From: Alphaproteobacteria bacterium
GTDB taxonomy: Bacteria; Pseudomonadota; Alphaproteobacteria; Geminicoccales; Geminicoccaceae
Direction: 5' to 3'
Length of the DNA: 55,527 bases
NCBI GenBank assembly: GCA_030431615.1
Contig: JAUIID010000006.1
Span: forward strand, 1-55,527
The notes under the pieces are model-generated. The model saw only the letters and a program-made list of their open reading frames with translations. It made no database searches and was not told the DNA's origin. The translations under genes were made by a program, and so were the position numbers. This document shows, piece by piece, positions 43,216 through 48,001 of this stretch; the first letter of the stretch is position 1, and the number at the start of each line of letters is the position of its first letter.

Positions 43216-45165
43216 ATGAAAAAATTTGGACTGAAGTATATATCTTCTCATCTCTCTATACGTCCTTTTGATACAGTTCCTATAAATAATTTTGTTCTTA
43301 TTACTGGAAGAAATGGATCCGGGAAAACCCACCTACTTCAAGCTATCCTGAACGAAAAAGTGCTAGTAGATGGACTAAATTATAGCAAAAATGACATACG
43401 ATACTATGATTTCAACACTCTCATTCCAAGAGACAAAGAGAGTAGAGTAAATACCTCGAGCGAGGTTAATCAAAAGGCGCGATCTGCATTTCGCTCAGTT
43501 ACCAAGCAACGATCTGAGCTCGAACATCAAATACGAGAAATGTGCGACATTGATGCTCTTGGATACTCGTTTGACCGAATATTGGTCGCTCCTATAGACG
43601 AACTTAAGACATGTTTACAAGACGAAGAGCTTGCAAAAAATATAATTGATCTAATAAGAGAAAAATCTCAAGATGCATTGTCAAGTTTGGCACTCAATGA
43701 GAGATTAGACCCAAACATGGAGACAATATTCTCGAATTTATGCGCTCGATATGACCGTCCATTTCTATCATTTGCGCTAAGCGAGATAATGGCCATTAAT
43801 TTTCACCAGATAAATCCTTTCGAGCAGAATGCAACAGCTCTCTTCCAAAAATACATTGACGAATACAAGAGCTTCGCTCTCTCGAAGTTCCTTGGGACGG
43901 ATGCGTCATCAAGGATTTCAGACTTTGAAAGTCGCAGTGAATTTGCGCAGTCGTGGGGCCCCCCACCGTGGGATATTTTGAATGCGGCATTTGCCGACGC
44001 AGATCTCGATTTTGCGATTTCCAAGCCATCCCTTAAAGATACTGAGCCTTATCAGCCAAGATTGAAAAAGAAAAGTAGTGGCGCCATTGTGCAGTTCGGC
44101 AGCCTCTCTTCCGGTGAGAAAGTGCTCGTTTCATTCGTTTTTTCAATATTCTGCACGATCGAGCTCCGACAATATGCAGTATTTCCCAAGATTTTACTGC
44201 TGGACGAGGTGGATGCTCCTTTGCATCCATTGATGGCTCGTCAGTTTCTTGATTCTGTAGTCAAAACACTAATTGGGCGGCACGATATGGTCGTAATTGC
44301 CGCCACTCACGCAGCTTCTACTGTAGCCCTAGCTCCAGAAGATTCTTTGTTTGTTATGGACGCTGGCTCCGCCGGTATTGCCAAAGTTAGCAAGGAAAAG
44401 GCTCTCGCTGCACTTACAATTGGGGTCCCTACTCTTTCGATAAGTTTCGAGGACCGCCGTCAAGTCTTCGTAGAGAGTGGGAATGATGCACGGGTCTACA
44501 CACAGCTTTATGATCAATTAAAACAAACATTGGACTCGGAACGAACTCTGCAGTTTATTGGCGCAGGCATCAAGACAAGCAAGGGCGATGTACATAACGG
44601 ACTTCCGGTTGTTAAAAGCATCGTTTCCCGACTTTATGAGGCAAAAAACAAAAGTGTATTTGGGTTGATTGACTGGGATGGCGTTAATCAAGAGAACGAG
44701 CGGATAATCGTCTTGGCTAGAGGAACACGGAATGGCCTGGAGAATGTTTTACTTGACCCATTGCTTCTCGCAGCGGCAATCGCACGTGATGCTCGCTTAG
44801 AATGCGGACCACTTATTGGTTTGGATACATCAAAGGGGCTGCGTCAGCTATTAGTGGAAGACGATCATGTCGTGCAAGAATTGATGAATTCGGTTCAAAA
44901 AAGAGTCCTAGGCGTTAGCGCCATTGGAGATTCAACACAAGTAGGTTACTTATACGGTAAAAGATATCTTGTTTCTAGAAAATATCTAGGAATAGACGAT
45001 CATGAGCTTTTAAACAGAGTGCTCGAATCGTTTCCCATATTTCGAGGGATTCAAAATAGACATGATGGATTGCTAATAAATTATATAGTGGAAAAGGTTC
45101 TTATTGATGTTCCGGAACTAACTCCATTGGAAATTCTGGAAGCATTCGGCAGACTTCTTGATTAA
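43216..45165 (+). CDS. AAA-family ATPase with TOPRIM-like C-terminal region (OLD-type), candidate defence gene
   Basis: 649 residues. FVLITGRNGSGKTHLLQAIL (residues 27-46) is Walker A. FGSLSSGEKVLVSFVF near 294-309 is the ABC/SMC-type signature, and ILLLDEVDAPLHPL near 327-340 is Walker B. AATHAASTVAL gives the switch His. A predicted helical insert lies between them. After residue 410, RQVFVESGNDARVYTQLYDQ and FGLIDWDGVN (residues 482-491, Asp485 and Asp487) match the Glu and D-x-D positions of a TOPRIM nuclease. This order is that of OLD/DUF4435-type proteins, several of which block phages. Codons end mostly in A/T, quite unlike the neighbours, marking recent transfer. It stands alone, like class 1 OLD. 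The nuclease assignment is inference. Confidence 0.8.
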   Translation: MKKFGLKYISSHLSIRPFDTVPINNFVLITGRNGSGKTHLLQAILNEKVLVDGLNYSKNDIRYYDFNTLIPRDKESRVNTSSEVNQKARSAFRSVTKQRSELEHQIREMCDIDALGYSFDRILVAPIDELKTCLQDEELAKNIIDLIREKSQDALSSLALNERLDPNMETIFSNLCARYDRPFLSFALSEIMAINFHQINPFEQNATALFQKYIDEYKSFALSKFLGTDASSRISDFESRSEFAQSWGPPPWDILNAAFADADLDFAISKPSLKDTEPYQPRLKKKSSGAIVQFGSLSSGEKVLVSFVFSIFCTIELRQYAVFPKILLLDEVDAPLHPLMARQFLDSVVKTLIGRHDMVVIAATHAASTVALAPEDSLFVMDAGSAGIAKVSKEKALAALTIGVPTLSISFEDRRQVFVESGNDARVYTQLYDQLKQTLDSERTLQFIGAGIKTSKGDVHNGLPVVKSIVSRLYEAKNKSVFGLIDWDGVNQENERIIVLARGTRNGLENVLLDPLLLAAAIARDARLECGPLIGLDTSKGLRQLLVEDDHVVQELMNSVQKRVLGVSAIGDSTQVGYLYGKRYLVSRKYLGIDDHELLNRVLESFPIFRGIQNRHDGLLINYIVEKVLIDVPELTPLEILEAFGRLLD

Positions 45166-46130: not shown

Positions 46131-46544
46131 TCAGTCCCCCTGGCCGTCCTCGAGCCAGTTCTCCAGCCGCAGCTCGCCGATCCGCGCGAACTCTCGCGTA
46201 TTGGCGGTGACCAGGATGCAGTCGAGGGTCAGGGCATGGGCGGCGATCAGCAGGTCGTTGGCACCGATCGGCCGGCCCGTGACAGCGAGGCGCGCCCGCA
46301 GCTCGCCATAGACCCGGTCGGCTGGCGGCGCCAGGGGCAGGACATCGACCCGCTGGAGCAACCCGTCGACCAAGGCCGTGAGCCGGGGCGAGCCCTTGTG
46401 CATGGCACCGAAGCGCAGTTCCGCTGCGACGACGATGCTGGTGCAAACGCTGTCCACGCCTGCGCTCGCGATCCGCCCCGCCACCGAGCCCAGGGGATGG
46501 CGGAGGAGGTCCGAGAGGATGTTGGTGTCCAGCAGGTAGCGCAC
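46131..46544 (-). CDS. vapC: PIN-domain toxin VapC, GTG start
   Basis: 137 residues. The PIN-domain acidic residues are in place: Asp in LLDTNILSDLL, Glu in SIVVAAELRFG, Asp in IGANDLLIAAHA, and the closing LVTANTREFARI. VapC toxins are Mg2+-dependent RNases that cut tRNA or rRNA when not bound by VapB. The frame starts with GTG; there is no in-frame ATG near the conserved N-terminus. It lies 13 bases downstream of the antitoxin gene, the standard order. Confidence 0.93.
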   Translation of the reverse strand: MRYLLDTNILSDLLRHPLGSVAGRIASAGVDSVCTSIVVAAELRFGAMHKGSPRLTALVDGLLQRVDVLPLAPPADRVYGELRARLAVTGRPIGANDLLIAAHALTLDCILVTANTREFARIGELRLENWLEDGQGD

Positions 46545-46557
46545 GGGCCCCGGCCGA

Positions 46558-46791
46558 TCAGAGCTCGACGGGCTCCGGTGGCACGTCCTCGACCTCCGGG
46601 AAATCCTCGTCCAGCGGCTCGATCGTGGCGAGCCACGCCAGCAGCGACCGTGCCGGTGCCGGCTCGAGGATCAGCCGGTCACCCTCCCTGCGCATCACCG
46701 CCTCGTCACCCGGCAGCTCGAACTCGCGCGGAATGCGCACGGCCTGATTGCGGCCATTCCTGAAGAGCCTGACGTGACGCGTGGCATGCAT
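46558..46791 (-). CDS. vapB: Antitoxin VapB (SpoVT/AbrB type)
   Basis: 77 residues. RHVRLFRNGRNQAVRIPREF is the AbrB/MazE-type swapped-hairpin DNA-binding domain of VapB antitoxins (N-G-R-N-Q-A-V-R-I-P is the hallmark). The acidic C-terminal half (LDEDFPEVEDVPPEPVEL) would wrap the VapC active site. VapB-VapC complexes usually repress their own promoter. Its start contains a double ATG (ATGCATG), and the first was used. Confidence 0.92.
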   Translation of the reverse strand: MHATRHVRLFRNGRNQAVRIPREFELPGDEAVMRREGDRLILEPAPARSLLAWLATIEPLDEDFPEVEDVPPEPVEL

Positions 46792-46886
46792 GGGCGGGCT
46801 CCCGTTGGCATAGGCCGAAACATAGGCCACGGTGGCTGCATGGTGCAAGGGGAACGGCTGGCGGATCTTGCCGCCGCCGCGTGCCC

Positions 46887-47360
46887 TCAGCCGGTCGGGC
46901 TTGCGACGGTGGCCGGGCGGTCCGCGGTGCCCGCCTTCAGCATGATGAACGCCATCAGCGTGGTCATTCCGACATGGGCGACGAAGGACGACTGGGTATA
47001 GCTGCCGAAGCCCATCATGAAGGTGCGGCCCACCACCTGGGCGAGAAATCCCTGGGCGACGAACCACAGCCCCAGGCCGACGCCCACCCCTGAGACGACC
47101 GGGCCGGCCCGCGTGATCAGGTGTGCCAGGAGCACCAGGGCCGGAAAGGCCAGCGCACCGATGGCGAAATGCAGGATGAACCCGAGCCAGTAGGGCAGGC
47201 TGAGGCCGAAGGCGGTTTGGGCCAGCGCCACGACCAGGTTCGCCGGCTGCAGCGTGACGCCGAAGACCATCGGAGAGATCAGCCAGGCATAGACCTCGAA
47301 GGCGATCTGTCCGGAAAGCCCGGCAATGAGGAAGTTCCGTGCGGTGATGCAGGCAGGCAT
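46887..47360 (-). CDS. Hypothetical small membrane protein
   Basis: 157 residues with four hydrophobic helices: FLIAGLSGQIAFEVYAWLIS, YWLGFILHFAIGALAFPALV, VVSGVGVGLGLWFVAQGFLA and VAHVGMTTLMAFIMLKAG. Helix 2-3 contains LTRAG-like short loops; no catalytic motif is visible. It may belong to the broad DUF1440/YagU-like membrane group, but the match is loose. Codon use is host-like. It is followed on the minus strand by the vapBC pair, about 95 bases away, and preceded by the repeat array region. Confidence 0.65.
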   Translation of the reverse strand: MPACITARNFLIAGLSGQIAFEVYAWLISPMVFGVTLQPANLVVALAQTAFGLSLPYWLGFILHFAIGALAFPALVLLAHLITRAGPVVSGVGVGLGLWFVAQGFLAQVVGRTFMMGFGSYTQSSFVAHVGMTTLMAFIMLKAGTADRPATVASPTG

Positions 47361-47515
47361 CTGGAGCGTGTCTTCCGGTTGCGGTTGTCGGGGCTTGCGC
47401 TCGTCGCGCGTCGCGCATGTGTCGGTGTCCCCGGCCCGCTTCCAGAGTGATCGCCGAGACGTGTGCGTCCGTTACCCCCGGTTGGTGCTCACCGTCGCCA
47501 CCCGCTCGCCCGGGG

Positions 47516-47661
47516 TGTCGCAGATTCCGCGACAGCAACGCCCGGGGTGTCGCGTATAACGCGACACCTGCCCCCGAACTGTCGCGCTATACGCGACAGT
47601 GGACCCCTGGCTGTCGCGTTATACGCGACAGTTGGCCCGGAATGTCGCGGAATACGCGACA
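47516..47661. repeat. Array of five 19-bp palindromes with 32-bp period
   Basis: Units at 47516-47534, 47548-47566, 47580-47598, 47612-47630 and 47643-47661 share TGTCGC-N7-CGCGACA or TGTCGCG-N5-CGCGACA, with arms TGTCGCG/CGCGACA and a variable centre such as TATAA, CTATA, TTATA or GAATA. The spacers are 12-13 bases and differ from each other (GCAACGCCCGGGG, CCTGCCCCCGAAC, GTGGACCCCTGGC, GTTGGCCCGGAA). Start-to-start distances are 32, 32, 32 and 31, about three helical turns, so dimers bound to each would lie on one DNA face. The first unit is the most diverged. Confidence 0.92.
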
Positions 47662-47667
47662 GTTGAC

Positions 47668-47772
47668 GACGAACGAACCCGCCAAATCGACGAACGAACC
47701 CACAGAATCGACGAGCGAACCCGGCGATTCGACGAATGAACCCAAGCTTTCGACGAACGAACCCGAGCGCCC
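47668..47772 (+). repeat. Array of five 21-bp direct repeats
   Basis: Five contiguous units share GACGAACGAACCC followed by eight less conserved bases: starts at 47668, 47689, 47710, 47731 and 47752. Unit 3 has GAGCGAAC and unit 4 GAATGAAC in place of GAACGAAC. The array begins only six bases after the palindrome array. A 21-bp period equals two helical turns. Both strands are open in one frame (a Ser-Thr-Asn-Glu-Pro heptad on plus), but no start or ribosome site supports coding. Confidence 0.92.
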
Positions 47773-47857
47773 GGTCCAGCAATTTCGGGCATCCGGCCGC
47801 CGTCCCGCCAGCTAAGGAAGCCCGAAAAGCAGGATTTGCCGAAGGAACCCGCGACCC

Positions 47858-47886
47858 TTGACCTGGCCGCCGATATAGGCTATTAT
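47858..47886 (+). promoter_or_regulatory. Near-consensus sigma-70 promoter of the SABATH-type gene
   Basis: TTGACC, a 17-base spacer and TATTAT each match the consensus at five of six positions, exceptional in this GC-rich DNA. The expected transcript start is near 47893, giving a leader of about 110 bases that includes the palindrome at 47965-47982. Confidence 0.7.
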
Positions 47887-47964
47887 TCCTTCATCGGTTG
47901 AAGAAGTTTCGCCCGGCTTTGACCATGCCGGCCTCTAGCGCCATCCTGTCGTTCGTGCTCCACC

Positions 47965-47982
47965 GGCGGTTCTCGAACCGCC
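47965..47982. promoter_or_regulatory. Palindrome in the leader of the SABATH-type gene
   Basis: GGCGGTTC-TC-GAACCGCC is a perfect 8-bp inverted repeat ending 19 bases before the start codon and adjacent to the GGAGG ribosome site. It could be an operator, or a hairpin that limits translation. Confidence 0.5.
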
Positions 47983-48001
47983 TGCAGCCCGGAGGAAGAG
48001 G

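Follow-up and report, generated by a model that had tools for sequence, protein, structure and literature searches.

The window, that is, the whole 55,527-nucleotide stretch of DNA that was analyzed, contains a 641-base intergenic gap (47361-48001) in which two arrays of short DNA sites lie next to each other. The first consists of five 19-bp palindromes, at 47516-47534, 47548-47566, 47580-47598, 47612-47630 and 47643-47661; all five were read directly, the first carries one arm change, and the other four match the exact pattern. Their starts are 32, 32, 32 and 31 bases apart. Six bases further on begins the second array, five direct repeats with a GACGAACGAACCC core on the forward strand (47668-47680, 47689-47701, 47710-47722, 47731-47743 and 47752-47764), found with the repeat pattern, every step being 21 bp. 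An earlier note on this DNA had described the gap and both arrays, and their coordinates and spacings were confirmed to the base. The element continues beyond what was described there, with a promoter-proximal sixth repeat (GCCGAAGGAACCC, 47838-47850, forward strand), kept in most other copies, and a sigma70-type promoter motif, TTGACC-17-TATTAT (47858-47886, forward strand), with which the conserved stretch ends on the right. The window copy thus measures 371 bases (47516 to 47886) and comprises the palindromes, the 21-bp repeats, the lone repeat and the promoter end. One such motif was found at this place against a shuffle mean of 0.2.

The motif faces a SAM-dependent carboxyl methyltransferase gene (PF03492; 48002-49081, forward strand) that starts 115 bp further on, which puts the window copy among the minority facing a gene start. 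On the other side, an ORF (46887-47360, reverse strand) without a Pfam or NCBIfam match at E 0.001 is transcribed away from the element. Next to the element, positions 46131-46830 (reverse strand) hold a PIN-domain (VapC-like) gene above the Pfam cut-off and a VapB-like gene that falls below the NCBIfam cut-offs. An AAA/AbiEii-type ATPase gene (43216-45165, forward strand) was left unlisted by the codon-usage gene caller despite being one of its seeds, and it was possibly acquired. Within the window, palindromes at up to 3 mismatches are not above chance (10 matches against a shuffle mean of 11.7, a number reached in 77 of 100 shuffles), but half of these matches, five, stand in register and have 0-1 mismatches; the 12 matches to the repeat pattern, against a shuffle mean of 2.6, were reached in none of 100 shuffles.

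The genome to which the window belongs (G000) was compared with two congeners (G001 and G002); L numbers denote fetched stretches or copies. Genome-wide, G000 has 58 sites of the exact palindrome pattern (reversed control 0) and 113 of the 15-base repeat at one mismatch or fewer (control 0). A BLAST search with positions 47500-47775 placed the composite on many contigs, and a profile search of 36 fetched stretches plus the window gave 37 aligned copies above 55 bits; with a further truncated copy on contig C80, about 38 copies are present in 5.3 Mb. The element is non-coding, dispersed and about 370 to 470 bases long. Nearly every copy has the same layout, in which five palindromes at steps of 31 or 32 bp are followed, after 25 bp, by about five 21-bp repeats and then by the lone repeat and an outward sigma70-type motif. 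Order and orientation are constant except in three copies in which some of the repeats are inverted and two in which only two palindromes are left (L147 and L153). The former (L151, L149 and L150, on contigs C4, C120 and C150) have two direct and then two inverted repeats instead of five direct ones, and they form a distinct branch of the tree (100/100). Two copies each, 10-22 kb apart, occur on four contigs. A few decayed or truncated copies without some of the palindromes, repeats or promoter were seen (L147, L152, L153 and L162). The earlier note had considered that the units might be ordinary REP-type repeats scattered without phasing, or arrays whose length varies by random slippage. Scattered they are, and the phasing is kept; five palindromes are found in 32 of the 37 copies, so that slippage was not seen for them, and the length of the repeat array varies somewhat more.

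Single-locus ideas, such as an origin, a partition site or the operators of one promoter, were rejected on the strength of the genome-wide copies. Dispersal in about 38 places does not support the single partition site or replication origin proposed before: the copy number argues against a centromere-like partition site, and an iteron replication origin was rejected on the number of loci and on the lack of a replication initiator among the right-hand genes scanned (30 of 36). CRISPR arrays have unique spacers of about 30 bp and are accompanied by cas genes; this reading was rejected, as the spacers here are 12-13 bp and no cas gene was found among the same 30 genes. A regulator gene marked by isolated palindromes was also rejected, since a scan of 37 sequences (the 36 stretches and the window) found only the truncated copy outside the aligned copies.

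The spacing of the sites was then considered copy by copy. Palindromes were scanned with up to 4 arm mismatches, and a site was accepted if a near-perfect one was present within 45 bp. In each arm, the outer six positions are identical in 172-176 of 176 palindromes, and position 7/13 is R/Y. Gaps between adjacent palindromes in G000 are 32 (97 cases), 31 (39), 42 (2) and 41 (1) bp, all 139 corresponding to three or four helical turns; two of the three long gaps are in the sister copies L144 and L146, so there were fewer events than cases. The step from the last palindrome to repeat 1 is 25 bp in 34 of the 37 copies and 56 (31 + 25) in the remaining three, in which the last palindrome is altered or beyond the strict pattern. 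About five repeats follow at 21 bp, the final step often being 20. Among the 24 copies with the exact 0/32/64/96/127 layout, pairwise likeness is 93% in the arms and 41-57% in the 12-13 bp spacers, with 26% expected by chance. In G001 and G002, palindrome gaps are 31 or 32 in 46 of 46 cases and the step to the repeats is 35 bp in 12 of 12, ten more (one turn) than in the own copies; this count is based on 13 copies with enough upstream sequence, the thirteenth (L162) having no sites left. Gaps of 31/32 versus 41/42 and steps of 25 versus 35 mean that length changes in the palindrome-to-repeat part are of about one turn. Between repeat 1 and the promoter-proximal repeat, the distance is 183/184 in only 19 of 36 copies; the others range over 137-205 and do not keep to whole turns; hence, the tight geometry stops short of the promoter in about half of the copies. 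That exact spacing is kept while the spacers diverge suggests that the phase of the sites is under selection in standing copies, and the whole-turn spacing together with the conserved half-sites points to cooperative binding on one face of the DNA. Both proposals, same-face binding read from whole-turn periods and selection acting on half-sites, had been made for the window copy, and the comparison of copies lends support to each.

Further sites occur in some copies. A quasi-palindromic site (CATAAGC or CATCACG, N3, CGTGATG or GCTTATG, in either orientation; up to 3 mismatches allowed) is present in 14 of 37 copies, at -83 (12 copies), -84 (1) or -73 (1) from palindrome 1, and these 14 have a partner site at +81, inside the spacer that separates palindromes 3 and 4. 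Three more copies are convincing for the +81 site only, one of them weak. Copies with the pair reach about 470 bases. The motif CAAN4TTG, which we take to be the core of the IHF consensus, is found at +105 or +84 from repeat 1, exactly in 11 of the 37 copies and with one mismatch in 6. In these scans the window copy had neither the quasi-palindromic sites nor the IHF-like core. The right end is composed of the lone repeat TTTTGCCGAACGAACCCG, CTTGAC or CTTGC, 17 bases and a TATAAT-like box, and conservation stops just after it; this form presumably resembles the RpoD consensus of alphaproteobacteria. The promoter motif stands at the right end of most copies. L129 is without a clear promoter and L124 without a clear -35 box, and the promoter positions are doubtful in L127, L129, L154 and L162.

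With respect to placement, the right-hand gene is convergent with the promoter motif in 26 of the 36 own copies that have a called gene (one more copy has none) and in 14 of 17 copies in other genomes (three further ones have none); these counts, 26:10 and 14:3, come from a codon-usage gene caller seeded with window genes, most of which have Pfam support. Taken together, 40 of 53 cases have the motif directed at the 3' end of a convergent gene (p = 2.7e-4, related copies being treated as independent), and in 19 of the 26 convergent own cases no more than 50 bp lie between the stop codon and the -10 site. Left-hand genes show no lean, with 16 of 36 directed towards the element and 20 away from it. 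Pfam matches in the called frame were obtained for 27 of the 30 right-hand genes scanned, and the genes are unrelated to one another. A linked transposase was rejected, as no neighbor family common to most copies emerged among 393 proteins at 54 loci; the largest cluster of similar neighbor proteins has 14 members at 8 of the 54 loci.

BLAST of 96 genomes, the own one included, gave matches in five, and outside G000 the strong ones were confined to the 21-bp array of the two congeners. The congener loci have the whole layout, with other palindrome letters: the halves are ATGAGTCG, ATGCGTCA, ATGGCGCA, TTGTGCCG and ATGTGTCG around a mostly TATA-like center, and the two halves of a site are usually unlike each other. 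Both congeners are drafts, 82-86% complete and often breaking at the element, with at least nine loci each. The exact repeat-pair pattern was found in 16 stretches of the genome_contigs collection, one in Bacteroidetes and 15 in three MAGs of this group (recorded as Geminicoccaceae S10.Bin091, Rhodospirillales CSSed165cm_57 and SRR4030105_bin.67); the exact palindrome TGTCGCGTTATACGCGACA was found in none, and the own genome may be absent from that collection. SRR4030105_bin.67 keeps the layout, with two copies in the draft and, by eye, halves like CGTTGCG; the sites of G096 were read by eye. Among 385 alphaproteobacterial genomes three matched: G000, plus two genomes whose hits, one or two in number, had 2 mismatches; the control pattern gave one hit as well. 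Eight of 31 family genomes matched. Arrays are limited to the three that belong to the genus, and none was seen in ten stretches read from the remaining five. A wide distribution of the element was rejected, as matches with arrays are confined to this group (genome_contigs, 385 and 31 genomes). A phage or plasmid origin was rejected as well, there being no match in phage and plasmid collections and 0 stretches in viral contigs for each of two exact patterns.

Positions of the element were compared between species by searching 22 gene 3' ends in three genomes, 16 of these ends giving the 24 loci that were read in G001 and G002. One locus has an element, one a remnant and 22 have none; on adding G002:C629, the numbers become 2, 1 and 22 of 25 for 16 genes. 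Here, none means no repeat core with one mismatch or fewer within 700 bases; two such loci offered fewer than 400 bases to examine, and some of the matched genes, at just 49-60% identity, may be paralogous. Since 22 of 25 matching gene ends are without the element, its positions turn over. At one clean empty site, that of G000:C229, the element is missing from G001 and about 35 bp separate the two convergent genes there; the flanks are too diverged for a target site duplication to be read. The element is present at matching 3' ends in both species twice (G000:C296/G001:C14 and G000:C4/G002:C629), each copy with the palindromes of its own species; the G001:C14 copy is cut by the contig end. A tree built without the palindromes separated 35 own copies from 17 others (99/100); it took 52 of 57 copies, leaving out the own copies L147 and L153 as well as L162, L164 and L171, and its bootstrap was not settled. 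The copies at matching sites are unpaired in this tree, which implies separate insertions or later conversion. The median end branch is 0.28 changes per site, and such long-branch copies keep intact sites.

The explanation that we favor, with some confidence, is that of a non-autonomous repeat element which carries a promoter and on which a phased nucleoprotein array would be built. The two arrays would be the core of this dispersed, non-coding element of one genus of Geminicoccaceae. A predicted dimeric protein would occupy the five palindromes, three helical turns apart, and a second predicted protein the 21-bp repeats, two turns apart, both together coating one face of about 250 bp of DNA. 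In some copies, the two quasi-palindromic sites and the IHF-like core would be added, and the latter may bend the DNA in the direction of the promoter. This assembly would control the putative sigma70 promoter, from which transcription would leave the element and mostly enter a convergent gene at its 3' end, in antisense; in the window copy it would be directed at the methyltransferase gene. The element presumably spreads and is lost within lineages, with selection maintaining the sites of standing copies. Between lineages the palindromes differ in their letters, and they do so across the whole set of copies, as if following a changing DNA-binding protein. Against this explanation counts the fact that the genes faced are unrelated, so that transcription may be incidental, and confidence in it is lowered by the promoter spacing being unphased in about half of the copies.

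The main rival is a chromosome-organising role, in which the element would be a host nucleoid or domain site, like BIME or RIB at gene 3' ends, with DNA architecture coming first and the promoter secondary. The number of copies in the genome, their frequent position at convergent gene ends and the preservation of sites in standing copies agree with it, and REPs between convergent genes and targeting by gyrase are described in PMC3733652, in which IHF and RIB appear as a cited title. However, the spacing of copies is uneven, as seen on the four contigs with two copies each, most of the matching congener loci are empty, and a conserved outward promoter motif would not be expected of such a site; we consider this role unlikely, if well worth keeping in mind. 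Still less probable is an ordinary selfish MITE or REPIN with the arrays as transposase-binding ends, a reading suggested by an element that is dispersed, lineage-specific and differently placed in relatives. No terminal inverted repeats were found on comparing the left 160 with the right 90 bases, the mean score being 16.5 within a copy and 16.4 between copies, and a search for the Y1 transposase family (PF01797) gave 0 in G000 and G001 and 2 in G002, with 6 of 31 family genomes having one. For lack of both terminal inverted repeats and a Y1 transposase in G000, the element was not filed as a MITE or REPIN; the intact sites of long-branch copies and the scarcity of decayed ones also speak against that reading.

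A multi-operator control region for a regulon of host genes could be imagined from a complete promoter motif with sites upstream, as the window copy has in front of the methyltransferase gene. Of the 36 own copies for which a gene was called on the right, however, only 10 have the motif facing it in sense; the Pfam-matched right-hand genes are unrelated and most matching sites in relatives are empty. We consider the idea very improbable. The palindromes might alternatively act as transcript hairpins, for the seven-base arms could pair and three Rfam miRNA models matched, all below their gathering scores. Position 7/13 goes against pairing (G-C 62, A-C 52, G-T 52 and A-T 10 of 176), as do the usually different halves of a site in G001 and G002, and an RNA element is hardly credible.

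Considered as a kind of element, the closest known examples are Correia and BrickBuilt elements, and on the best reading the present one would work most like a promoter-bearing intergenic element of that sort. Correia elements, a MITE of Neisseria, are described as dispersed and intergenic, with sigma70-like promoters and an IHF site, about 105-204 bp long, bounded by terminal inverted repeats and in most cases placed immediately upstream of genes (PMC2229807, PMC10969869). The present element shares with them its dispersed intergenic position; a sigma70-type motif stands in most copies and an IHF-type core at the fixed place in 17 of 37 (none in the window copy). It differs in its length of 370-470 bp, in that no terminal inverted repeats were seen and in its phased site arrays. 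BrickBuilt, a MITE of Porphyromonas gingivalis with a 23-nt minisatellite, is reported to have 19 intergenic copies, internal tandem repeats without spacers, promoter activity and small inverted-repeat ends (PMC4596501). Intergenic copies, internal tandem repeats and a promoter, here only as a motif, are common to both; free spacers at exact spacing and a palindrome array set the present element apart. Putative mobile promoters likewise place one promoter type beside unrelated genes, unlike them, however, the element has a large phased operator array and is mostly antisense. BIMEs are mosaics of short protein-binding motifs. REP, BIME and RIB repeats are described as being often downstream of genes and between convergent genes (PMC3733652). 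The element resembles these in its position and as a mosaic of short motifs, in contrast to its long fixed layout, base-exact register and promoter motif and the fact that no Y1 (RAYT-type) transposase was found in G000. The earlier note knew of no element with this combination of arrays, and none was found described in the open-access literature, most subscription papers lying outside that search; among the matches listed for the sequence strings in open literature, all are unrelated by title and the start of the abstract.

A more far-reaching and tentative possibility is that some forty interchangeable nucleoprotein platforms are kept by selection as a set, with their operator letters rewritten in every copy along with a DNA-binding protein that evolves fast between lineages. 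Each would combine two or three site types in one base-exact phased array and have an outward promoter to itself, in most cases set against convergent gene ends, and single positions would come and go. If true, such platforms would be a bacterial counterpart of centromere or recombination-hotspot proteins that co-evolve with dispersed sites. In bacteria, dispersed repeats usually take the form of short palindromes or of MITEs, and their internal grammar is slight. The present repeat is long and has an exact multi-site grammar in nearly every copy, despite the turnover of positions and the lineage-specific operator sequence. Two questions can be put to the test on it: whether elements of this kind act selfishly or benefit the host, and how a DNA-binding protein changes specificity in concert with dozens of its sites. 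The copies, some forty, are also natural replicates for a direct test of helical-phase constraints.

Traces of the repeat motif are seen beyond the genus. The repeat core is dispersed in three family genomes of other genera (G020, 121 exact copies; G010, 58; G025, 30; controls 0-1), often as CTCGGGTTCGTTCGTGCAAAA, clustered and without the 21-bp register; ten G020 clusters (L253-L262) had no repeat pairs 20-22 bp apart and no own-type palindromes. A Y1 transposase as the owner of the motif in these genera was rejected, as the motif was within the fetched stretch at 1 of 10 such loci. The Bacteroidetes stretch (L176, RIFCSPLOWO2_12_FULL_37_12) is a 21-bp minisatellite on the same GAACGAACCC core, in a distant phylum, with 0 own-type palindromes and is probably a coincidence. 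In G001 and G002, a terminator-like hairpin, GGGGAGG..CCTCCCC, beside a GGAGGGGC tag was seen by eye to recur near elements and genes (left flanks of L158, L160, L167, L169 and L171; also L195) and is perhaps another dispersed repeat.
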